From: Oscillospiraceae bacterium
GTDB taxonomy: Bacteria; Bacillota; Clostridia; Oscillospirales; Ruminococcaceae
Reading direction: 5' to 3'
Length of the DNA stretch: 64,000 bases
Assembly: GCA_022766785.1 (NCBI GenBank)
Contig: JALEOL010000057.1
Coordinates: 1 to 64,000 of the forward strand
Position 1 is the first letter of the stretch, and each line of letters opens with the position of its first letter. Below are positions 51,068 through 64,000 of this stretch, piece by piece. Below the pieces are notes generated by a model, which had not been told where the DNA came from, ran no database searches, and was given only the letters and a program-made list of their open reading frames with translations. The position numbers were made by a program, and so were the translations under genes.

Positions 51068-52792
51068 ATGAGCGAGAACGTCGATGTTCTGAACGGAAAG
51101 CTGTCGCGGCTGGAACAATGTCTGCTCGCCGACGGAGTGTTCGACAGGTGCGCGAATATTGCCGCAGACCGCTCAGCGGCGTTTGTTTCCGTGTGTGATA
51201 CAAACGAGCGTGCTTACGTTTTTCGGGCAGCGGTTGATACTCCGCTCGCTGCGTGGAAAAAGGTATGTGCGCAGGCGGCTGAATTTGTCGGCAGGTACGG
51301 TTTTCAGCCGTTTTGGGTCAAGGCAGATATCATGGCGAATGCGGAAAAGGTGGCTTTCTCTGAATTTCAGCAGATGATAGCTGTAAGCCGCAGCAGTTTT
51401 TTCCGCAGGGGAGTCGCGTTCGATGACGGGCTAGAGACCGCGCTCATTGAGGCGGAACTCAACGGCAGCCGTGTGATATCCTACAAAAAGCACATGATGG
51501 AGCTTGCCACGGTGAACGCCTACCTTGCTTCCTGCGAAACTCTGACGCTTCGGGAATTTCCCGAGCAGATAACCCTGTTTGACTGCGAGAGCCGTTTCTG
51601 CGATGAGAACGGAGAGGTGTTCCGTCTTTACGGCAGCGGAAACAACTGCGGCAGGCGTATCACGGGCGGGTTTGACGCAGACGCCGCCCTTGTCGTAATG
51701 GAGACCGCATGGCAGTATCTTGAAATGCAGGTGGGATTTGACGGGAAGTTTGAGTATGGCGTGTATCCGATAGATCATCGGGAGATTCCGGGCTACAATA
51801 TCCTGCGCCATGCTTCTGCTATCTGGAGCCTGCTGTGCTCCTACCGCATAAGCGGCGATAAATTCACACTGAACCAGATCATCAAGGCGGTAGGCTTTCT
51901 GGTGAGGAACACATATCGGTTATTCCCCGAGCGCGAGGGCAGGGAGAATACCGTGTTCCTTGCGGATAAGACCCACGGCGAGGTAAAGGTCGGCGGAAAT
52001 GCACTGGCGGTCATTGTGCTGACGGAATTCATGAGCGTCACCGGCAGCGACAAGTACGTTAAGCTGTGCAGGGAGCTTGGCAACGGTATACTGGAACTGT
52101 TCGACCAGAGCGACGGCAGCTTCTGGCATGTGCTGGAGTTCCCGGGGCTTGGGCGTAAGGAGAAGTTCCGCACGGTGTATTACGACGGCGAGGCGGTATT
52201 CGCACTGTGCAGGCTTTACGGGCTTTTCGGGGAGCAGAAATGGCTTGACGCCGCTGCTCTTGCCGCAGACAGGTTTATTCGTGAGGGCTACGAGAAATAC
52301 CGCGACCACTGGGTGGCGTATGCGATGAACGAGCTGACGAAGTATCTGCCCGAGGACAGGTATCTGGGTTTCGGGCTGAAAAACGCGAATGTAAATCTCC
52401 GCAGGATACGTGCGCAGGACACGACTTACCACACATATCTCGAGCTGCTGTGCGTCACCTTTGAGATGTACTCGCGGATAACAGAGCAGGGGCTGGAATG
52501 CTCCTATCTCCCGAAATTCAGGGCGGAGGAGCTAGTGGATACCATATTCTACCGGGCAGACTATATGCTCAACGGCTATTGCTATCCCGAATATGCGATG
52601 TATCTGAAATATCCGTCGGCGGTGCTGGGGGCGTTTTTCGTGCGGCATGACGGTTTCAGGATAAGGATAGACGATATACAGCATTTTTGCAGCGCCTATT
52701 ATTCATTCTACAGGAATTACGACAGGCTGGCGGCGATAAGAAAACAATTCGTTCAGGAACGAGAGGGCGGAGAAAATGGCAGTGGAACTTGA
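51068..52792 (+). CDS. (alpha/alpha)-barrel, glycosidase/epimerase-like protein associated with the CapA gene
   Basis: Helical repeats with aromatic/acidic motifs (HASAIWSLLCSYRISGD, VKVGGNALAVIVLTEF, YYDGEAVFALCRLYGLFGEQKWLDAAALAADRFI). Confidence 0.55.
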   Translation: MSENVDVLNGKLSRLEQCLLADGVFDRCANIAADRSAAFVSVCDTNERAYVFRAAVDTPLAAWKKVCAQAAEFVGRYGFQPFWVKADIMANAEKVAFSEFQQMIAVSRSSFFRRGVAFDDGLETALIEAELNGSRVISYKKHMMELATVNAYLASCETLTLREFPEQITLFDCESRFCDENGEVFRLYGSGNNCGRRITGGFDADAALVVMETAWQYLEMQVGFDGKFEYGVYPIDHREIPGYNILRHASAIWSLLCSYRISGDKFTLNQIIKAVGFLVRNTYRLFPEREGRENTVFLADKTHGEVKVGGNALAVIVLTEFMSVTGSDKYVKLCRELGNGILELFDQSDGSFWHVLEFPGLGRKEKFRTVYYDGEAVFALCRLYGLFGEQKWLDAAALAADRFIREGYEKYRDHWVAYAMNELTKYLPEDRYLGFGLKNANVNLRRIRAQDTTYHTYLELLCVTFEMYSRITEQGLECSYLPKFRAEELVDTIFYRADYMLNGYCYPEYAMYLKYPSAVLGAFFVRHDGFRIRIDDIQHFCSAYYSFYRNYDRLAAIRKQFVQEREGGENGSGT

Positions 52793-55700
52793 AGCACCAA
52801 AGGGTTTTGCGGCGGCAGGAAGAGACGGGGCAGTCGTACTGCGCTGGAAGCCGGTCAGCGGCGCTGAGGGCTACAGGGTGTTCTTTTATGCGGCGGACGA
52901 GCCGGGAAAGCTCATTAAGGCGAGGTATTCCAGGGACTGTGAGAAGGGAATTCTCGGTTTCTGCAACGGAAAGATGTACCTTGCCGAGGTGTGCGCATTC
53001 GCAATGGTGAACGGCAGGGAGGTGTGCGGCAGGAGGTCGGCAAGGCTTCCGTTTGTTCCAGTTTCGGAGAAGCTGCGCGCGCAGAACATCATCTGCCTGG
53101 AGCCTGGACAGACAGCCCGGATAAAATGGGAGGCGGATAACCAGGTGCCGTCGGCTCTGTTTTCGTCGGATAATGCCGCAATTGTTGCTGTGGACGGTTC
53201 AGGGAAGCTGTTCGCAAAGGCTCCCGGCAGCGCGAATATCACCATTACCTCCAGCGACAGGCAGAGGTTCGTGACCCGGGTCGAGGTGGGGCGCAGGCTT
53301 TACCGCGGCGAGAGCAGGGCGGTGCTGATGTTCGCCGGGGATATGATGTGCACCGTGGCTCAGCAGAAAGCGGTGGCGGAGCGTGGATACGACTTCTTTG
53401 ACCCGTTCAGACAGTTGAGGGGCATTCTGTCCCGGGCTGACTTTTCGGCGGCGGTGCTTGAGACCTGCTGCTGCGACGGAGCGGCTTTCGAGGGCGAGCA
53501 GCGCAGGAACCCTGACGGCTCGCCGAACGGCAATGCGCCTTCGACGTTTATCTCCGCGGCGGCATATGCCGGCTTTGACGGGCTGATAACAACGGCGAAC
53601 CGCAGCTGCACGGGGCGTATGCTCTCTGATACCGTATCGGAGATAAAGCGCAGCGGAATGCGGAATATAGGCACTTTCGGGGACTGTCCGGCGGTGTTTG
53701 ACGTGCGTGGCATCAGGGTCGCGGTGATCGCCTGCACGATGGTGACAAACAGCAATCAGGAGCAGCCTGACGGTGTTTACAGCCGGGAATATTTCACCAG
53801 CCGGGTGGAAGCGGCGCGCGGTATGGGCGCGGAATTCATCGCCGCATACATGCACTGGGGCGTTGTGAATTCCCATGCGGTGAGGACTTCGCAGGCGGAC
53901 GAGGCGCATTTCATGGCGGAGGCAGGTGCCGGACTTATCATCGGCTCTCACCCGCATATGGTACAGCGATTCACGACGATACACACCTCCGACGGAAGGG
54001 ATGTGCCGTGCGCGTACTCCCTGGGCGACCTCATTTCAACTATGTCCGAAATGGACGGCAACCGCGACGGTATTATACTCCGGGCGGAGCTTCACAGGAA
54101 AGAGGACGGAATTTCGTTGAAATGCTCCTGCATTCCGGTTATGACGGAGGACAGGGAATGGGGCGCAGAGGTGGTGCCGGTGTTCCCACCACACAGCGAG
54201 CTGAGCCGGGTTTCCCTGGAGCGCACTCAGGCGGCGGTGGGAAAGGGGCTTCAGTGCAGCCCGTACAAACCGAGGGTGCTGCTGTGCGGCTCTGAGCAGC
54301 TGGACAGGATATTTTCTGACGGGCAGGGCTTCCGGTGCAGCAGAGCGGCTATGCGGCTGTCCCAGCTTTCTCTTGGCTGCCGGAGGGCGGCAAGAGAGAT
54401 CGAAAGCAGCGCAGGCGACAAGCTGCGTCTGGATCTTAGCAAGGATATCGCCGGTGCGGTGCTTGCGATAAAGCCGGATCTTGTCGCAGTTGATCTTATG
54501 GCGGCGGCGCGCACTCCCTGCTGGACGCTCCCCGGAGAGCCGGGAGAGGAGCCACAGTTCTTCACGGACACAAAGGCGTTCCGTCAGTCGGAATTCTTCC
54601 GCAGGAATCGCGGCAGGCTGACGATGATAAAGCCACCGTTCGGGGAGAGCGTGTGGAAGCCGCTTCTCGGCAGATACTGCGAGCGGCTGACCGCTGCTGT
54701 CCCACCGGAAAGGATAATCCTGTTCAGAAACAGGTTTTCTAACCACAGCGCAAAGGACAACGAGCTGCGCGTCTGCCGCCCGAAAAAGAGCATGGTGCAG
54801 TTCCTGCGGGATATGGAGGAGCACTTCATAGCGAAGGTTAAGCCGCTTGTGGTGGATATTTCGGGGTATTACTTCACGGCAGGCGAGAACTCCGACGACC
54901 ACGAGCCTTTGTATTACCACGACGCATACCGGGCGGCGGTGGAGCTTTCCTGCGGCAGCGGACGCACCTGTGTTTCTCTTCCGGACGAAAGAGTGTGGTT
55001 CAGCAGGGTCATGAAGTATTACCAGAACATGACCGAGCGCTCATATTTCAGCTGGCTGCTGGATATGAACTGCGCCGCCGACCAGCTGATCGCCTATACC
55101 AGCGCAGAATTTGCCGCATCAAATGCCCAACGGCTGCTGCGGCTGAAACGCTCCGGGAACTGTGAGCTTTCCGCGGTGAAGGACTTTTTTGCAGAGGACA
55201 GCGGCTCCGGGGAGCTTATCCGGGCGGCTGACATAATTCACACGGTACTGGCAGGGCGGCTGGATCGTACATATGAGTTCTTCGAGCCGGCGTTCCGAGG
55301 GCATTACGGGATAATCCGCAAAATGATAAGGCTGCTTTCCACAGAGACGGGAGCCGCAGTCAACGAGGAGAACGCGGAGCTTGTATTTCTGCTCAGGGGT
55401 AAGCCGCAGCTGCGCAGATATCTTGCGTCCCTCAGCAGGAGGACGGTGGACATCTGGGGCAGCAGCGTTTCCCGGGAGTCGGCGAACTGCTGCCGGGAGG
55501 CGCACATCGGCACTTACATCTACAAGCAGCCGCCGATACTTGCGTTCGAGCCGCCGGTGGACGTGGAGCTTCCCGAGGGAGCGGAGGCGTTCAACGGCAG
55601 CAGGTGGCGCAGGAGAAATTTCCGTGACGCGCTGTTAAGAAGCGGCGACGCGGACATCAGCGGCAGCGAGTCCGGCTGGATCATCGTGGACTTCTGCGAC

Positions 55701-56237
55701 CTTATCAGCCGCATGACGGAGTACCGCGGGGCGCTGTTCGAAACGGACGATTTTATCCGCAGGACGGAGTTCTACAGGAGCATTCAGGAGGAATGCCGGG
55801 AATGCTGGCTGTTCGAAAGGCGTGACATGAAAACCTGCGCGGAACGGATAGCGCGCTTCGGCGAGCTGTTAAAGGCGAAGTACGGCGAGCATATTATCCT
55901 GATAAAAACCGAGCCGAAGGACAGGTACATAGACCTCGATCACCGTCTGAAGAAGATGGAAACAGACAATATGTTCATGATAAAAAAGCGGTTCATTTCG
56001 CTTTGCGAGGAACGCTTTGCGAGCGTCACCGGCTGCTGTGTCATCGATATATCGCGGAAGTTCTACGCTTCGGACAGCTTTCCGCTGGGGGGCGTTGATA
56101 TCGTGCATTACGAGGACGAATTCTACCGGCAGGCAGGGGCGTATATCAGCGAGATGATCAACGGCTCGGGCAGGCGCGTTTTCAATACCGTTGATGAGAA
56201 TTATTTACTGCTGAGGGATATGAGAGCGCAGAGATAA
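52776..56237 (+). CDS. Large multidomain protein: FN3-like + BIG2-like + CapA (poly-gamma-glutamate synthesis-like) + two DUF6270-like modules
   Basis: FN3-like VVLRWKPVSGAEGYRVFFYAA; BIG2-like ALFSSDNAAIVAVDGSGKLFAKAPGSANITITS; CapA-like MFAGDMMC..YMHWGVVNS..IIGSHPHMVQ..YSLGDLIS; C-terminal WGSSVSRESANCCREAHIGTYIYKQPP. Confidence 0.7.
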   Translation: MAVELEAPKGFAAAGRDGAVVLRWKPVSGAEGYRVFFYAADEPGKLIKARYSRDCEKGILGFCNGKMYLAEVCAFAMVNGREVCGRRSARLPFVPVSEKLRAQNIICLEPGQTARIKWEADNQVPSALFSSDNAAIVAVDGSGKLFAKAPGSANITITSSDRQRFVTRVEVGRRLYRGESRAVLMFAGDMMCTVAQQKAVAERGYDFFDPFRQLRGILSRADFSAAVLETCCCDGAAFEGEQRRNPDGSPNGNAPSTFISAAAYAGFDGLITTANRSCTGRMLSDTVSEIKRSGMRNIGTFGDCPAVFDVRGIRVAVIACTMVTNSNQEQPDGVYSREYFTSRVEAARGMGAEFIAAYMHWGVVNSHAVRTSQADEAHFMAEAGAGLIIGSHPHMVQRFTTIHTSDGRDVPCAYSLGDLISTMSEMDGNRDGIILRAELHRKEDGISLKCSCIPVMTEDREWGAEVVPVFPPHSELSRVSLERTQAAVGKGLQCSPYKPRVLLCGSEQLDRIFSDGQGFRCSRAAMRLSQLSLGCRRAAREIESSAGDKLRLDLSKDIAGAVLAIKPDLVAVDLMAAARTPCWTLPGEPGEEPQFFTDTKAFRQSEFFRRNRGRLTMIKPPFGESVWKPLLGRYCERLTAAVPPERIILFRNRFSNHSAKDNELRVCRPKKSMVQFLRDMEEHFIAKVKPLVVDISGYYFTAGENSDDHEPLYYHDAYRAAVELSCGSGRTCVSLPDERVWFSRVMKYYQNMTERSYFSWLLDMNCAADQLIAYTSAEFAASNAQRLLRLKRSGNCELSAVKDFFAEDSGSGELIRAADIIHTVLAGRLDRTYEFFEPAFRGHYGIIRKMIRLLSTETGAAVNEENAELVFLLRGKPQLRRYLASLSRRTVDIWGSSVSRESANCCREAHIGTYIYKQPPILAFEPPVDVELPEGAEAFNGSRWRRRNFRDALLRSGDADISGSESGWIIVDFCDLISRMTEYRGALFETDDFIRRTEFYRSIQEECRECWLFERRDMKTCAERIARFGELLKAKYGEHIILIKTEPKDRYIDLDHRLKKMETDNMFMIKKRFISLCEERFASVTGCCVIDISRKFYASDSFPLGGVDIVHYEDEFYRQAGAYISEMINGSGRRVFNTVDENYLLLRDMRAQR

Positions 56238-56285
56238 AGCTGCGGTCTGACAGATACTATTACAACGCGGACAGGGGGCGGTCGT

Positions 56286-57470
56286 CTGAAAAACAGAATA
56301 CTTTCAGCGGCGCTGTGCCTGCTGCTTCTGACCGGGTGTTCCGAAAAGGAGCAGCAGCCCGTTATGACCGCTTCGCAGACCGCAGGGCAGGTCGTGAGTG
56401 AGCCTTCTGATACCGCTGTTCCGGTGGTTTCGTCCGAGGAGGAAATACTCACGGAGGACAGCGTGGCTCCTACCGTGGAGCAGTCCGCTGATAATACCAC
56501 GGATACAGCGGAAGAAAGCCGCGAAGAACCCACGGAAAGCCCTCCGGAGAACACCGTAGAGCCGGAGAGTACAGCCCCGGCAACATCAGCTGCGGCAACT
56601 CAGACCACTACCGTACAGACCACCATACAGACCACAGCCCCGGAGCCTGCGGAGGTGGTGATACCGGAGGTGAGGGTGCCGCTCTCGCCGGGGAAGGACG
56701 TTGCAGAGAACGAAAAGGTACGGGTGGACTACAGCAATGCTCCCGAGGGCTACATATCGGTATGCTGGAACGAGACCGGGAAGGCGGTAAAGCTGCGGAT
56801 AGTATGCGGCGAAACCACCTGCGACCATGACGTGCCCACCGGGGGAACGACTGAGTACTACCCCCTGTCCTGCGGCAGCGGCAGCTACACGGTGCAGATA
56901 TACGAGCAGACCGAGGGGAGCCGCTACACCAAGGTGCTGGAACAGGAATTCACCGCAAAAATAACCAACGAGACATCGCCGTTCCTTTACCCGAACAGGT
57001 ATGTGAAGTTCAGCAGGAATTCCGCCTGCGTTGAAAAGGCGGCTCAGCTCTGTGCAGGAAAGAACGGCACGATCGAAAAGACCGCCGCGATATTCGGGTG
57101 GATCACCGAAAACGTCACCTATGACCGGGAGCTTGCGGCAACGGTAAAGAGCGGCTACGTCCCCGACCCGGACAGCGTGCTGGCAAAGAAGTCCGGGATA
57201 TGCTACGATTACGCGTCGCTTATGGCGGCTATGCTGCGCTCGCAGGATATCCCCACACGGCTTGTCGTGGGTTATGCAAAGGAAAACATCTTCCACGCGT
57301 GGAACGAGATATGGACTGAGCAGACCGGCTGGATAACCCCGGAGCTGCTGCTTTCAAAGCAGGGCTATAATCTCACTGACGCGACATTCTACGCCGGCGC
57401 GGCGGATAAGGACAAGATCGCCGGATATATTTCGGACAGCGGAAATTACTCGGCGCTGTACTACTATTGA
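56286..57470 (+). CDS. Transglutaminase-like lipoprotein (probable CTG start)
   Basis: In-frame upstream (M)KNRILSAALCLLLLTGCSEKEQQ with lipobox LTGC; KSGICYDYASLMAAMLRSQDIPTRLVVGYAKENIFHAWNEIW (transglutaminase C/H/D pattern). Confidence 0.85.
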   Translation: MKNRILSAALCLLLLTGCSEKEQQPVMTASQTAGQVVSEPSDTAVPVVSSEEEILTEDSVAPTVEQSADNTTDTAEESREEPTESPPENTVEPESTAPATSAAATQTTTVQTTIQTTAPEPAEVVIPEVRVPLSPGKDVAENEKVRVDYSNAPEGYISVCWNETGKAVKLRIVCGETTCDHDVPTGGTTEYYPLSCGSGSYTVQIYEQTEGSRYTKVLEQEFTAKITNETSPFLYPNRYVKFSRNSACVEKAAQLCAGKNGTIEKTAAIFGWITENVTYDRELAATVKSGYVPDPDSVLAKKSGICYDYASLMAAMLRSQDIPTRLVVGYAKENIFHAWNEIWTEQTGWITPELLLSKQGYNLTDATFYAGAADKDKIAGYISDSGNYSALYYY

Positions 57471-57485
57471 ACCGGAGGGATTTTT

Positions 57486-58535
57486 ATGAGAGTAAAGAAG
57501 CTGGATAATGCCCAGGTGGAGTATATCTGCGAGCAGCTTTCCATGATCATCGGCTCCGGTATCGGCGTCGCTGACGGAATGGAGCTGCTGTGCGGCGATA
57601 TCGCGGAGGGTACGCTGAAGTCCGCCTGCATGGAGATCGCAGAAGCAGTCGGAAAGGGCGAGGCTCTGTCCGCTGCGGTAAGGGGCACGGGCAGGTTCCC
57701 TGCATACGCCGCGGATATGATTGAAGTCGGCGAGATGAGCGGCAAGCTGGAGGAGGTGCTCCGGGGACTTGCGCAGTACTACGACGAGAGGGACGATATC
57801 CGCAGGGCGCTGCGCGCGGCGGTGCTTCACCCCATGGTATTGCTGCTGATGATGACGGTGGTGATGATCGTGCTGGTGGTAATGGTCATTCCGATGTTCG
57901 GGGATATCTTCTCGCAGTTCGACAGCTCGGTGAGCGGAACGGTGAAGAATACCGTGGAGCTTGCATATAATTCCGGTACGGCTATCATGATAGTTCTGCT
58001 GGCGCTGATCGCGGTCTCCGCCGTTATCGCGCTGGTCTCGAAGTTCTCAAAGTCCGGCGGCGTCCCGGGGCGTATCCTGTCGGCGCTGCCGGTTACGAGG
58101 GGGATTGCAGAGAAGCTCTCCCTGTGCGACCTGACAAAGGCGATAAGCATAAATGTAAGCGCAGGTATCTCCCCGGAGGATATGATAATGCGGTCGAATA
58201 TCCGCAGCTTTATCCGGGACAGGCGCGTCGCCGCAAGATACGACGACTGCGAGAAGCGCGTTATAAACGGCGAGAGCTTCCCGGACGCAGTGATAAACAG
58301 CAGGCTGCTGCCGCCGCTTTACGCAAAGTCGCTGAAGCTGGCTTACGCCTCCGGCAGCTTTGAGAGCGTGTGGAAGCGCGTAAGCTCCACCTATCACGAG
58401 GAAACTCAGCGCAGCCTTGTGAACCTCACCGCCGTTGTCGAGCCGGCGATGATAATCGTTCTGGGAGTGCTGATCGGCGCGATACTGCTTATGCTTATGA
58501 TCCCGCTCATGAATATAATGTCGGTGCTGGGGTGA
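57486..58535 (+). CDS. Type II secretion/type IV pilus inner membrane protein (PilC/GspF family)
   Basis: LSMIIGSGIGVADGMELL; PAYAADMIEVGEMSGKLEEVLRGLAQYY; VVEPAMIIVLGVLIGAILLMLMIPLMNIM. Confidence 0.92.
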   Translation: MRVKKLDNAQVEYICEQLSMIIGSGIGVADGMELLCGDIAEGTLKSACMEIAEAVGKGEALSAAVRGTGRFPAYAADMIEVGEMSGKLEEVLRGLAQYYDERDDIRRALRAAVLHPMVLLLMMTVVMIVLVVMVIPMFGDIFSQFDSSVSGTVKNTVELAYNSGTAIMIVLLALIAVSAVIALVSKFSKSGGVPGRILSALPVTRGIAEKLSLCDLTKAISINVSAGISPEDMIMRSNIRSFIRDRRVAARYDDCEKRVINGESFPDAVINSRLLPPLYAKSLKLAYASGSFESVWKRVSSTYHEETQRSLVNLTAVVEPAMIIVLGVLIGAILLMLMIPLMNIMSVLG

Positions 58536-58539
58536 GGTA

Positions 58540-58854
58540 ATGAAGAAGATGAGATTCAGGGCGGTCACGGTGATTCTGGGAGCGGTGCTGTTCGCTGTGA
58601 TGATACTGTGGCTGGTGCTGGCTCTGGGGAATGCTTCGAAGGCTTCCGAAAGCGAGAGGCTGGCTCAGGTGAAGCAGTCGGTGGAGAACGGCATAACCCT
58701 GTGCTACGCCACCGAGGGCGCTTACCCGGAGAGCCTGGAATATCTCACGCAGAGCTACGGCGTGGTGTATGACGAGAGCCGTTACCTGGTGCACTATGAG
58801 CGCTTCGCCGCAAATGTGCGCCCGACTGTGACGGTGATCCGGAGGGAGAGCTGA
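58540..58854 (+). CDS. Small single-TM pseudopilin-like protein
   Basis: N-terminal hydrophobic helix; EGAYPESLEYLTQSYGVVYDE resembles pseudopilin beta-region; between pilC and pilT. Confidence 0.65.
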   Translation: MKKMRFRAVTVILGAVLFAVMILWLVLALGNASKASESERLAQVKQSVENGITLCYATEGAYPESLEYLTQSYGVVYDESRYLVHYERFAANVRPTVTVIRRES

Positions 58855-58855
58855 T

Positions 58856-59302
58856 ATGAAATTTCGCAGTGAAAGGACGCTTGCCGATACTGCATCGGCG
58901 GTGAGCAGCATGCTGCTTTTCGTGCTGTTCGCGCTGTGTATGCTTATGGCTGTGGCGGTCGCGGCGGACACCTACGGCAGGATAGAAAAGGGCTATCAGC
59001 AGTCCTTCGGGTCGGCTTCGTCGATAAAGTATGTCGCCAACAAGCTGCGCTGTGCAGAGAATGTCACGCTGCTGGACAACGGCGGCGCGGCGGTGGAGAG
59101 CGACGGCATGGTGAGCGTGATATGGTGCTCCGGCGGAGAATTGTACGAGAAATACGCCCCTGCCGGCGGCGAAATTACGACACAGGGCGGCGACAGGATA
59201 TCCAGCGCCGATTCGCTGAGCATTACCGAAAACGGCGGCTTGTATGTGATAACGGTCACAGCCGGGGAAGAAACCTCCTCGGTCATGGTGCGGAGAGGGT
59301 GA
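58856..59302 (+). CDS. Single-TM protein of pilus locus (DUF4860-like)
   Basis: N-terminal TM helix, extended beta-rich C-terminal domain, locus position. Confidence 0.6.
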   Translation: MKFRSERTLADTASAVSSMLLFVLFALCMLMAVAVAADTYGRIEKGYQQSFGSASSIKYVANKLRCAENVTLLDNGGAAVESDGMVSVIWCSGGELYEKYAPAGGEITTQGGDRISSADSLSITENGGLYVITVTAGEETSSVMVRRG

Positions 59303-59736
59303 TCTTACTGAACAGAAAGAGCAATATCCTGCTGTTTGCAGAAATGACTATCGCACTGCTGTTCTTTGTTATCTCCTTTGCCGTGATGATCAGGGTGTTT
59401 GCGGCGGCGGACGGGCTGGAGCGCAGGGCGCAGCGGCGCGAAAAGGCGGTGCTGTGCGCGCAGTCGATAGCGGAGGCTTATTCCGTGAGCGGCGACACCG
59501 GGACGGCTCTGAGGCTGGTTTTCGGCGAGGATATCCCCCAGGAGGATATCACGCTTAACTCAGAGCTTGTGCCGGAGGATAACGGAGAAATAACGCTCAC
59601 GCTTTCCGAGGAGAAAGATGATACGGCAGCCGGGACTTATTCCACGCTGAGCATTCGGTTCGGGTATTCCGGGGAGGAGCTGTTTTCGCTGGACTGCGGA
59701 GCCTATATCCCACGGGGAGGTGCTGCGGTTGAATAA
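59299..59736 (+). CDS. Single-TM protein of pilus locus (GTG start)
   Basis: (M)ILLNRKSNILLFAEMTIALLFFVISFAVMIRVFAAADGLERRAQRREKAVLCAQSIAEAYS; overlaps the preceding stop. Confidence 0.65.
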   Translation: MILLNRKSNILLFAEMTIALLFFVISFAVMIRVFAAADGLERRAQRREKAVLCAQSIAEAYSVSGDTGTALRLVFGEDIPQEDITLNSELVPEDNGEITLTLSEEKDDTAAGTYSTLSIRFGYSGEELFSLDCGAYIPRGGAAVE

Positions 59737-60217
59737 GAAAAAGCGGTTTTTCGGCAGCACGGTGGGCGTTGGATATATTTCCATGATGCTGATATTTACG
59801 GTGATCTGCCTGACGATACTGGCGGTGCTGAGCTTCCAGGCGGTGTATTCCAACGACAGGGTGAGCAGCCGCAGCGAGAGGTTCACACAGGAATACTACG
59901 ACGCGGACATGGCGGCGAAAAGGACTCTGGCTCAGCTTGACGGCATAGCGCTGGAGTGTGCGGAGAGCTTTTCGTTTGAGGAGAACTTCATCAGCGGCGC
60001 GGAGGAGCTTCCGGGGATAACCGCGGCGAGGGTGCCCGGAGGGGTGAGGGCGGATTATTCCGCGAGAATAAACGACCGTCAGCGGCTGTATGTCAGCGTG
60101 GTGTTTTACGGCGATACTGCGGCAGGCAGGTACGAGGTGCTGCAATGGCGCAGCGTAACGGAGGATAATTCACCGGACAGCACGCCGGCGGTTTGGGACG
60201 GCAGCGATCTGGTGTAA
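59729..60217 (+). CDS. Single-TM protein of pilus locus (TTG start likely)
   Basis: NKKKRFFGSTVGVGYISMMLIFTVICLTILAVLSFQAVYSND; RBS gggaggtg. Confidence 0.6.
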   Translation: MNKKKRFFGSTVGVGYISMMLIFTVICLTILAVLSFQAVYSNDRVSSRSERFTQEYYDADMAAKRTLAQLDGIALECAESFSFEENFISGAEELPGITAARVPGGVRADYSARINDRQRLYVSVVFYGDTAAGRYEVLQWRSVTEDNSPDSTPAVWDGSDLV

Positions 60218-60390
60218 CACCGATCCCCATTAAAATTCAGGAAATCTTTGCAGAAATCCAGCGCCGCTATCTGCGTCAAGTTCCCTTGCAAGGCATACAG
60301 CCTGGCGGCGGTCACTTTTCTGGAGATCGGCACTGTCTTTCAGCAAATCTTTTCCTTCATTTTAATGAATATTAGTTTGAAAGGTGAACT

Positions 60391-61452
60391 ATGGACATTC
60401 TTGAAATTCTGAAAAAAGCGGCGGCGGATCACGCTGCGGATATTTTTATAGTTTCCGGCGCGGTGCTGAGTTACAAGGCGCAGGGAAAGATGTACCGTTT
60501 GGGTGACGAGCCGCTCTCTCCCGATGACACAAAGGCGCTGGTGGTGCAGATATTCAGGCTGGCGAAATTCGACATCAGCGAGGACAACATACCGGAGCGC
60601 GAGAAGGATTTTTCCCTGTCAGTACCCGGCGTGGGGCGCTTCCGTGCAAATATCTACAAGCAGAGAAGCTCATGGTCGGCGGTGCTGAGATATGTTCCGT
60701 TTGAGCTTCCCGACCCGGTGAAGCTGGGTATCCCGGAGCAGGTGATGCAGCTCAGCGAGAGCCGCAGCGGTATCGTGCTGATCACCGGCGTTGCGAGCAG
60801 CGGTAAATCCACCACGCTTTCCTGCATAATCGACAGGATCAACCAAACCAGGAACGGGCATATAATCACTATTGAGGATCCTATCGAATTTCTGCACCGG
60901 CACAATAAGTGCATTGTCAGCCAGCGCGAGATAAGCATCGACACCGACAGCTACATAGACGCGCTAAGGGCTGCGCTGCGCCAGTCGCCGGACGTAATTC
61001 TGCTGGGCGAAATGAGAGACCACGAGACCATAAGCGTTGCAATGACCGCCGCCGAGACCGGTCAGCTGGTTCTGTCCACCCTGCACACCCTGGGCGCTGC
61101 GAACACTATCGACCGTATAATCGACGTATTTCCCATAAATCAGCAGCACCAGATCAGGGTGCAGCTGTCAATGGTGCTGAATGCCGTTGTGTGTCAGCAG
61201 CTGCTGCCCTCGGTGGACGGGGGACTTATCCCGGCATTTGAGATAATGACGATGAACAACGCTGTGCGCACGCTTATCCGCGACCAGAAAACGCATCAGA
61301 TCGACACGATATTGCAGTCCTCCGACGGAATGCAGACCATGGACAGCTGCATAGCGGGGCTTTACAGAGACGGAAAGATAACCGCCCGGACTGCTGTGGA
61401 GCACGCATATAATCCCGAGATAATGGCAAAGCGTATTTCGGCAGCAAACTGA
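60391..61452 (+). CDS. pilT: PilT-type twitching/secretion ATPase
   Basis: GVASSGKSTTLSCIIDRIN; ITIEDPIEFLH; QSPDVILLGEMRDHETISVAMTAAETGQLVLSTLHT. Confidence 0.93.
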   Translation: MDILEILKKAAADHAADIFIVSGAVLSYKAQGKMYRLGDEPLSPDDTKALVVQIFRLAKFDISEDNIPEREKDFSLSVPGVGRFRANIYKQRSSWSAVLRYVPFELPDPVKLGIPEQVMQLSESRSGIVLITGVASSGKSTTLSCIIDRINQTRNGHIITIEDPIEFLHRHNKCIVSQREISIDTDSYIDALRAALRQSPDVILLGEMRDHETISVAMTAAETGQLVLSTLHTLGAANTIDRIIDVFPINQQHQIRVQLSMVLNAVVCQQLLPSVDGGLIPAFEIMTMNNAVRTLIRDQKTHQIDTILQSSDGMQTMDSCIAGLYRDGKITARTAVEHAYNPEIMAKRISAAN

Positions 61453-61724: not shown

Positions 61725-64000
61725 ATGAGCGAGAAGAAGCGCATCTGGGGCAAAAAGTCCGCGGCGGTCATCGCTTTTGCCGCGTCGCTGCTTGCTACTA
61801 ATACCGCGTCTGTATTAGCGGCAGGCGAGGAGACCCCGGGGGATCTCCGGGATCACACACTAACTGATCTTGACCACACCGGAGATGATGTTGTATACTA
61901 TGAGCTTGCTGAAAACGTTTATAGGGTGGACAGCAAGTCGCAGGCGGTCAATAATTTCTACGGCGTTATGAATACGGTGAACGATTTCGGGCTTTATGCC
62001 AAGTCCACCACGATCAACCACCTCGAGTGCAACGCCGCAGTTGAAAGCATAAACGAGTTCAATCTGCAGTACTGCAATATCGTGAGGACCGGTTCTATCG
62101 GTACCGGCAGATATACCGTGTACCTCGGCGCTGCTCCCACGAATACCAACAGGCTTGACATGGCGAGCATTCCTGCTGACGCTGATGTTGAGGTAGTGCT
62201 GAATTTCGGCTTTGAGCGTGAAGATACCGATAACGGCAACAGGGCTGGTTTCAACGCCAACGGTACGCATTATGAGCTGCTGAATGTCAACACGTCCAGG
62301 CTGACTATACGCAACCCCTATGCAGACGAGACGCAGTATGATATCCAGGGGACGCTGGATACTATCGCTGACAGCGGTGATAAGCTTCTTAAAGACGTTG
62401 GGAAGGTAAAGGGAACCACCAGCTTCCGCGCCGCTCTTGAGAGTGCATATGAGAATATCGTGAGCGGAAAGGTAAAGCCCGGTCAGACGATGATCATTAC
62501 CGCCGACGCGAACGACATCGCTTACAATCAGAATTATGAGAGCGCTCTGGTAAAGCTGCTTACTGAGAATAACGGGGTCAGCGTGATCATCAACGTTGAT
62601 ACCTCTGATTTTGAGGGAGATCACTTTGATTTCGGCAATATCAACGGAACAGCATTCAATAAGGGCTGTGCATATGTTGTATGGAACTTCGGCAGCTATG
62701 AGAAGGCGCTGAGCGCACCCGCCGGAGGAATTATTGCTGCGCCTTATGCGACCGTTTCTACCGACAGGGGTCATGTGAACGGCGCGCTTATCTGCGATAC
62801 ATTCAACCAGAATAACGAGATACATCAGGTCACAAGACCCAAGTATACAGAGCCTGATGTTCCTGAGCCCGTTGAACCCGATGATCCTACGACCGAGGAG
62901 TCTTCTGAGGAGACCACCGAAGAGCCGGACGCACCTACTACAGACGAGCCGGACGTACCGACTACAGACGAACCGGACGTACCTACCACGGACGAGCCGG
63001 ACGTACCTACTACAGACGAGCCGGACGTACCGACTACAGACGAACCGGACGTACCTACCACAGACGAGCCGGACGTACCTACTACAGACGAACCGGACGT
63101 ACCTACTACAGACGAGCCGGACGTACCTACTACAGACGAGCCGGACGCACCTACTACAGACGAACCGAACGTACCTACCACAGACGAGCCGGATGTACCT
63201 ACTACGGACGAGCCGGACGTACCTACTACAGACGAGCCGGACGTACCTACCACAGACGAACCGGACGTACCTACCACAGACGAGCCGGATGTACCTACCA
63301 CGGACGAACCGGACGTACCGACTACAGACGAGCCGGACGTACCTACTACAGACGAACCGGACGTTCCAACCACAGATGAGCCTGATGTTCCGACCACAGA
63401 TGAAACCACCGAGGAAACTACAGAGGAAACCACTGAGGAGCCTGATAAGCCTGTTGATCCTAAGGATCCCGATGAACCAGACGATCCTGTGAAGCCGGAA
63501 GACCCGGACGATCCCGATGAACCTGACGATCCTGTGAAGCCGGAAGTCCCGGACGATCCTATCGTGCCGGATTCACCTGTAAATCCTCCCAGACCGCCGA
63601 GACCTTCACGTCCTGACGATCCTGTTGACCCGATCGATCCTGTAATTCCGTCCGATCCGGAAACGCCGGTGGATCCTGACGAGCCTGTTACACCTACCGA
63701 TCCGGAGGTTCCGGACGATCCCGAACAGCCGGAGGATCCCGAGCTGCCGGAGGATCCCGATGATCCAGACGAACCTACTGACGATGTTGAGCCGATCTAT
63801 GATGATTCTGAGGAAGCAGACACAGACAGCGACGTTGATGACGCTGATCCCGACGAGGTAGAGTTCCTGCCGGACGATGTACCGCTGGGTGAGACCCCGG
63901 TAGATCATGATCCTAACAATCCCATTTATGATGATATCATTATTGATGATATCGGAGTTCCAATGGGAGAAAACCCCGACATGGGCGTCGAAGGCCCTGT
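61725..64000 (+). CDS. Secreted choice-of-anchor-A-like adhesin with (TTDEPDVP)n repeats; 3' end outside window
   Basis: Continuous frame MSEKKRIWGKKSAAVIAFAASLLATNTASVLAAGEE...NNFYGVMNTVNDFGLY...AGGIIAAPYATVSTDRGHVNGALICDTFNQNNEIHQ; no stop before 64000, so not in the ORF track. Confidence 0.85.
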   Translation, partial: MSEKKRIWGKKSAAVIAFAASLLATNTASVLAAGEETPGDLRDHTLTDLDHTGDDVVYYELAENVYRVDSKSQAVNNFYGVMNTVNDFGLYAKSTTINHLECNAAVESINEFNLQYCNIVRTGSIGTGRYTVYLGAAPTNTNRLDMASIPADADVEVVLNFGFEREDTDNGNRAGFNANGTHYELLNVNTSRLTIRNPYADETQYDIQGTLDTIADSGDKLLKDVGKVKGTTSFRAALESAYENIVSGKVKPGQTMIITADANDIAYNQNYESALVKLLTENNGVSVIINVDTSDFEGDHFDFGNINGTAFNKGCAYVVWNFGSYEKALSAPAGGIIAAPYATVSTDRGHVNGALICDTFNQNNEIHQVTRPKYTEPDVPEPVEPDDPTTEESSEETTEEPDAPTTDEPDVPTTDEPDVPTTDEPDVPTTDEPDVPTTDEPDVPTTDEPDVPTTDEPDVPTTDEPDVPTTDEPDAPTTDEPNVPTTDEPDVPTTDEPDVPTTDEPDVPTTDEPDVPTTDEPDVPTTDEPDVPTTDEPDVPTTDEPDVPTTDEPDVPTTDETTEETTEETTEEPDKPVDPKDPDEPDDPVKPEDPDDPDEPDDPVKPEVPDDPIVPDSPVNPPRPPRPSRPDDPVDPIDPVIPSDPETPVDPDEPVTPTDPEVPDDPEQPEDPELPEDPDDPDEPTDDVEPIYDDSEEADTDSDVDDADPDEVEFLPDDVPLGETPVDHDPNNPIYDDIIIDDIGVPMGENPDMGVEGP
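62935..63415 (+). repeat. About twenty tandem 24-bp repeats encoding TTDEPDVP
   Basis: Iterated acctactacagacgagccggacgt with mainly synonymous variation. Confidence 0.95.

Follow-up and report, generated by a model that had tools for sequence, protein, structure and literature searches.

Here we report that P1 and P2, two overlapping genes within a 64,000-nt stretch of an Oscillospiraceae genome (contig JALEOL010000057.1; the window), combine a member of a toroid protein family that accompanies Asp-X-repeat adhesins across phyla with a partner of new domain architecture. The reading that we favor, with a probability of roughly one half, is that P1 and P2 tailor Asp-rich adhesin repeats in the cytoplasm, before the adhesin is exported. 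The analysis establishes the gene structure, the domains, the homology, the linkage, and the co-occurrence; an action of the two proteins on the repeats, its location in the cytoplasm, and a role of Asp in recognition or as a modified residue are inferred. The linkage to Asp-X tracts is the surprising part of the result. P2 is a new architecture attached to a family that is known through one staphylococcal study only and is misnamed in databases.

The P1-P2 locus and its conservation

Both genes are on the plus strand and encode proteins of 574 aa (P1) and 1153 aa (P2). ORF calling confirmed the arrangement described in the initial annotation, with the start of P2 overlapping the end of P1 by 17 nt. 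The region contains the following features, given in window coordinates:

51068..52792, + strand: P1, N-terminal alpha/beta region (about aa 1-190) and (alpha/alpha)-toroid (about aa 204-569); from the ORF, the model and homologue alignment
52776..56237, + strand: P2, whole 1153-aa protein; from the ORF and orthologs
52776..53300, + strand: P2 FN3-like and Big_2-like domains, aa 1-175; from Foldseek FN3 tandem matches, Big_2 at 20.4 bits and profile matches to Ig-like domains
53325..54041, + strand: P2 PGA_cap (CapA) domain, aa 184-422; from Pfam
54273..54995, + strand: first DUF6270-like domain of P2, about aa 500-740, with invariant S506; from the second Pfam stretch, BLAST of relatives and the model
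55452..56075, + strand: C-terminal DUF6270 domain of P2, aa 893-1100; from Pfam and the ortholog alignment
56364..57470 (called ORF), + strand: transglutaminase-core lipoprotein, always adjoining P2 in the genus; from Pfam
57486..61452, + strand: type IV pilus/T2SS-like genes (T2SSF protein, small single-span pseudopilin-like proteins, PilT-like ATPase), with a gene order shared by nearly all loci of the genus
61725..63998, + strand: secreted adhesin (pAdhesive_15) with Asp-rich (TTDEPDVP)n repeats, open at the window end; proposed substrate of P1/P2

The repeats of the adhesin form a near-perfect array of 8-residue units that runs to the window end, about 9 kb downstream of P1 and P2 and behind the pilus-like genes. 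For the transglutaminase protein, a lipobox (LLLLTGC) lies upstream of the first ATG (56241-56364), so that the true start must precede the one called at 56364.

Full-length P2 orthologs without internal stops are present in most of 25 genus members and in loci of 34 named MAGs from the gut, showing that P2 is conserved far beyond chance. In the genus, P2 is almost always followed by the transglutaminase lipoprotein, the type IV pilus/T2SS-like gene set, and a repeat protein that is secreted. Among the loci that could be judged, P1 immediately precedes P2 in about two thirds. In the sister genus g20, the P2 ortholog is solitary, and P1 directly precedes a P2 paralog of about 1220 aa (PGA_cap and DUF6270) in eight genomes. 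P1 thus genuinely pairs with a CapA/DUF6270 protein, and this pairing has been either kept or re-formed. The initially proposed genetic coupling is supported by the position of P1, when present, directly upstream of P2 or of its paralog; the opposite outcome, two genes that never co-occur elsewhere, did not arise. P2 is, however, kept in seven genus loci that lack both P1 and Asp-X tracts, and, because it persists without P1, it must have a further role.

Alternatively, P2 may work for its neighbors, either the transglutaminase lipoprotein or the type IV pilus/T2SS-like apparatus (pilin modification would be an example), with P1 as an occasional add-on. In support, the transglutaminase and pilus-like genes follow P2 in almost all loci of the genus, whether P1 is there or not. 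However, the more divergent P2 orthologs of other genera are solitary, lacking both P1 and this array, and we consider a dedicated function of this kind unlikely. The upstream genes for citrate synthase, a ZapA-like protein, and a U32 peptidase were rejected as pathway partners; they are housekeeping genes that precede P2 in many relatives and are missing from the window locus. A P1-P2 fusion was likewise rejected, the long "open frames" being unsupported by ORF calls.

Properties of the two proteins

P1 had no match in Pfam or NCBIfam, and a sequence search of the PDB yielded GH76 matches below threshold and nothing else. The AlphaFold model of P1 (pLDDT 81) resembles (alpha/alpha)-toroids, namely cellobiose/GlcNAc 2-epimerases, GH76, and GH88-like proteins (Foldseek E values of 1e-6 to 1e-4), bearing out the initial view of P1 as a helical toroid. 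Profile matches of P1 homologs to GH88, C5-epimerase, and GH76 were all sub-threshold. The barrel of P1 shares its fold with AGE, GH88, and GH76 proteins, but P1 stays below their family HMM cut-offs, lacks a Pfam assignment, and carries an extra N-terminal domain, and the catalytic residues of the three families are not recognizable in it. Altogether, 27 residues are invariant across 20 P1 homologs from Oscillospirales, Staphylococcus, Listeria, Enterococcus, Acinetobacter, Klebsiella, and Rhizobiales, including D87, R197, R247, H248, E305, H354, G374-E375, and H414-W415 as well as E508, R531, R533, D535, D536, and H539. Solitary P1 homologs lacking a P2 partner (L130-L134) carry an N-terminal hydrophobic anchor, unlike those paired with P2, and four of these five genomes have no Asp-X tracts.

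For P2, the domain searches upheld the initial assignment of CapA and DUF6270 rather than contradicting it. The PGA_cap domain (aa 184-422) was found with an E value of 2.5e-37 and 129.2 bits against a cut-off of 27, and DUF6270 (PF19786; aa 893-1100) with an E value of 5.8e-9 in two stretches, the C-terminal copy scoring 36.6 bits against a cut-off of 27.5. The predicted FN3/BIG2-like modules were recovered as tandem FN3/Ig-like domains at the start of the AlphaFold model (pLDDT 79), with FN3 matches in Foldseek, and as a Big_2 match (aa 126-163) of 20.4 bits, just below the cut-off of 22.8. The two DUF6270 regions, which had both been placed at the C-terminus, were recovered only in part: two DUF6270-like domains exist, but the second is located upstream, at about aa 500-740, where it scores weaker than the C-terminal copy and is recognized by a BLAST match between both domains of relatives (E 1.5e-4) and by the second Pfam stretch. 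Both motifs that had been quoted, the first being WGSSVSRES, belong to the one C-terminal domain, and the second was misread, the sequence being VIDISRKFY... and not VVDIS.... In the C-terminal domain, S896, D1091, and D1100 are invariant in the P2 orthologs; for an SGNH-type enzyme, S896 would be the conserved Ser, and the candidate His1111 is Asn in 4 of the 17 orthologs. DUF6270 was not found in any paper searched.

The CapA domain of the window copy retains D189, H360, H392, and H394, but its NHxxD motif is lost and reads NRSC-T, so that the PGA_cap active-site motif set (GD, NHxxD, HWG, HPH) is incomplete and CapA activity of P2 in the window species is doubtful. NHxxD is intact in 14 of the 17 P2 orthologs, and the HWG and HPH histidines are present in all. 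Two other orthologs have also lost NHxxD, and their adhesins lack a (DT)n tract in the sequenced part. A compensated frameshift was rejected as the cause of the loss, the other reading frames not restoring the motif.

Related architectures were encountered as well. A 966-aa CapA paralog in the same genome (L041:8334-11234, contig C58) unites an acyltransferase-3, a PGA_cap, and a classical GDSL/SGNH domain. It represents a membrane-bound form of the CapA/SGNH combination, of which the genus contains relatives (L043, L044), and was rejected as part of the same system owing to this other architecture (AT3-PGA_cap-SGNH membrane protein). P2 paralogs of 773-825 aa (L140:9486-11963 and L141:8844-11165) have kept the DUF6270-like half but have no CapA domain.

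An N-terminal hydrophobic stretch is absent from P1, from P2, and from all 17 P2 orthologs examined, confirming and extending the earlier observation that neither protein has a signal peptide or TM segment. Both proteins are Cys-rich (2.6% in P1 and 3.0% in P2; 2.0-3.0% in the P2 orthologs), and a high Cys content is commoner in cytoplasmic proteins. For both reasons, P1 and P2 look cytoplasmic. The initial annotation had considered a system that is "cytoplasmic or exported by another route"; the first option fits, whereas export by another route fits less well than cytoplasmic modification of a protein that is itself exported.

Co-occurrence of P1 with Asp-X tracts across genomes and phyla

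Within the genus, (DT)n or (DS)n tracts mark the adhesin that closes the array in 12 of 14 P1-bearing loci, whereas all seven P1-less loci lack them (p = 3e-4). We extended the analysis to the order by scanning 396 genomes for a codon pattern encoding eight Asp-[AST] dipeptides. The (Asp-[AST])8 pattern was observed in only 15 of the 396 genomes, comprising 9 of the 14 genomes with P1 and 6 of the 382 others (Fisher 1.6e-11, uncorrected for relatedness). All nine genomes with at least 17 overlapping pattern matches are P1-positive, and all five pattern-positive genomes of the genus carry P1. In g20, tracts are present in all eight genomes that have P1 together with the P2 paralog, but in neither of the two with P1 and no P2 paralog and in none of the three without P1; the tract gene is often distant from P1. 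P1 is rare across the class (5 of 392 genomes). The co-occurrence is partly phylogenetic, with independent instances in the genus itself, in g20, in family f16 (G241), and in the unrelated lineages described below. A strict Asp-X tract is absent from the genome of the window itself, whose adhesin has the (TTDEPDVP)n repeats instead, and the window species may represent a lineage in which the P1/P2 system has drifted.

A tblastn search of plasmid and phage records revealed P1 homologs, mostly over 80-95% of the P1 sequence, in Agrobacterium, Rhizobium, Sulfitobacter, Nitratireductor, Variovorax, Klebsiella, Acinetobacter, Listeria, Enterococcus, and Staphylococcus. Homologs outside the genus are 27-43% identical over at least 526 aligned positions, the N-terminal domain included, and this full-length homology together with the shared invariant residues places P1 in a family of GtfC-like toroids. 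Of 15 distinct loci, 12 have a run of 23-602 Asp-[AST] dipeptides within a few kb of the P1 homolog in the fetched stretch, and no Asp-X tract was found in the stretches fetched for Acinetobacter, Klebsiella, and Variovorax.

The partner of P1 differs between the lineages and can be a Mur ligase, an ATP-grasp protein, a GT4 glycosyltransferase, or CapA. In the rhizobia (Agrobacterium/Rhizobium/Nitratireductor), the homologs adjoin a BapA/LapF-type adhesin and a T1SS, with a Mur ligase fused to P1 or encoded after it, and further rhizobial homologs are fused to several ATP-grasp domains. Staphylococcal homologs occur with pls or an SdrD-like adhesin and a separate Mur ligase or, at the sdrF locus, with a convergent GT4. 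The homologs adjoin an LPXTG protein in Listeria and a pAdhesive_17 LPXTG protein in Enterococcus, and in Acinetobacter the order is T1SS adhesin, P1 homolog, PGA_cap. Family members in public records (L151-L153) are annotated as "poly(glycerol-phosphate) alpha-glucosyltransferase" despite a toroid fold and the absence of a recognizable GT domain. One record labelled Acinetobacter phage (L149; CAKLQH020000021.1) looks like a bacterial chromosome, containing carB, greA, an adhesin, a P1 homolog, and PGA_cap.

Under the favored reading of cytoplasmic tailoring, P1 and its partner would act on the repeat stalk of the adhesin ahead of export. P1, judging from its invariance, would be the common recognition or catalytic component, and P2 would here replace the ligase or glycosyltransferase partner, with the adhesin at 61725-63998 as the substrate in the window. 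The CapA domain of P2 may be phosphoesterase-like or may, as in the related MslH, act on the peptide backbone. Asp is the candidate for the recognized or modified residue because it is the only residue common to all tracts. The (Asp-Ala)n tracts offer no hydroxyl. The P1 homologs that go with them are linked to domains of the Mur ligase or ATP-grasp type, two carboxylate-amine ligases unrelated to each other; this combination suggests that the Asp carboxylates may be modified in (Asp-Ala)n tracts. More tentatively, one may think of a cross-phylum system in which the toroid and an exchangeable partner (Mur ligase, ATP-grasp, CapA/DUF6270, or GT) modify the alternating Asp-X tracts of giant adhesins, either on the side chains of Asp or on the backbone that contains it. 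If true, this would be a new post-translational modification of bacterial surface proteins, with (Asp-Ala)n targets that lack the Ser or Thr required for O-glycosylation. Our literature search found no paper joining a Mur ligase or ATP-grasp protein to Asp-repeat adhesins.

Asp-X tracts, such as SD of Sdr/Clf and DA of BapA and Listeria adhesins, are widespread stalks in biofilm formation and adhesion, and their chemistry is poorly understood; to our knowledge, Ser glycosylation alone is established. As a single genetic marker, the P1 family connects these tracts across phyla, and it points to Asp as an unexamined modification site. The link would also account for a family that is misnamed "poly(glycerol-phosphate) alpha-glucosyltransferase" or "Mur ligase" in databases.

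Surface polymers and comparison with known systems

The experimental anchor of the family is gtfC of S. aureus, which lies directly downstream of pls and encodes a 538-aa protein that is not recognized as a glycosyltransferase by CAZy (PMC5230774). Full glycosylation of the SD repeats of Pls, as detected by PAS, requires both GtfC and GtfD, and so does the biofilm effect (Bleiziffer 2017, PMC5230774). The S. haemolyticus P1 homolog is also located directly after pls and also has 538 aa, and therefore, judging from position, length, and annotation, staphylococcal GtfC very probably belongs to the P1 family.

The initial annotation had proposed synthesis or modification of a cell-surface polymer. 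The connection to the cell surface stands, but the locus contains no polymerase, no flippase, and no PgsB/CapC partner. Protein modification fits better than polymer synthesis because P1 homologs adjoin Asp-X-repeat adhesins across phyla and P1 tracks the tracts. That P1 and P2 make or trim a polyglutamate- or capsule-like surface polymer, the adhesin linkage being incidental, is thus rather improbable. The strong PGA_cap domain of P2 speaks for it, as do the P1 partners elsewhere, which include Mur ligase and CapA, both chemistries of poly-gamma-glutamate synthases. However, P2 has no signal or anchor, PgsB/CapC, a polymerase, or a flippase was found in no locus examined, and the published substrate of GtfC is a protein (PMC5230774). 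P2 shares the PGA_cap domain with CapA/PgsA of the poly-gamma-glutamate synthases, but it is a five-domain protein without membrane anchor and without PgsB/PgsC that has, in the window species, lost NHxxD. The features of PgsBCA systems (an adjacent Mur-ligase-like PgsB, a membrane PgsC, and an anchored CapA) were not found in the P2 neighborhoods examined.

MslH was the sole solved PGA_cap relative found. It is a Ca-dependent peptide epimerase of a RiPP pathway that produces a lasso peptide (PMC10406935; PDB 8gq9). MslH resembles P2 in its PGA_cap-family calcineurin-like fold, and it acts on a ribosomal peptide; P2 is far larger, and, of the MslH residue set D11, E44, N87, H88, D91, H259, H261, and H295, the equivalents of H88 and D91 are missing in the window copy. 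It is highly improbable that the CapA domain works, as MslH does, as a peptide C-alpha epimerase and produces D-residues in the repeats: the relationship to MslH, the NHxxD of most orthologs, and the universal HWG and HPH histidines would fit, but the same residues also serve phosphoesterases, the His and Asp of NHxxD that the window copy has lost are essential in MslH, and there is no evidence of D-residues.

The closest parallels to the proposed tailoring of adhesin repeats come from adhesin loci. BapA of Paracoccus denitrificans, with 891 Asp-Ala repeats, is encoded next to type I secretion genes, as are the adhesins beside many P1 homologs; no modification system has been described there (PMC5588039). 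The SD repeats of staphylococcal adhesins bear GlcNAc on Ser, and here, as proposed for P1/P2, Asp-X repeats are modified by enzymes encoded alongside, SdgA and SdgB (PMC3794999); these are glycosyltransferases, of which the window locus contains no homolog. The pls-gtfC-gtfD locus is similar to P1/P2 in that a toroid protein of about 540-575 aa without export signal is encoded with an Asp-dipeptide-repeat adhesin and acts with a partner. It differs in that the partner in the window is a CapA/DUF6270 fusion and not a GT4, the repeat is TTDEPDVP and not SD, and the adhesin is encoded about 9 kb downstream.
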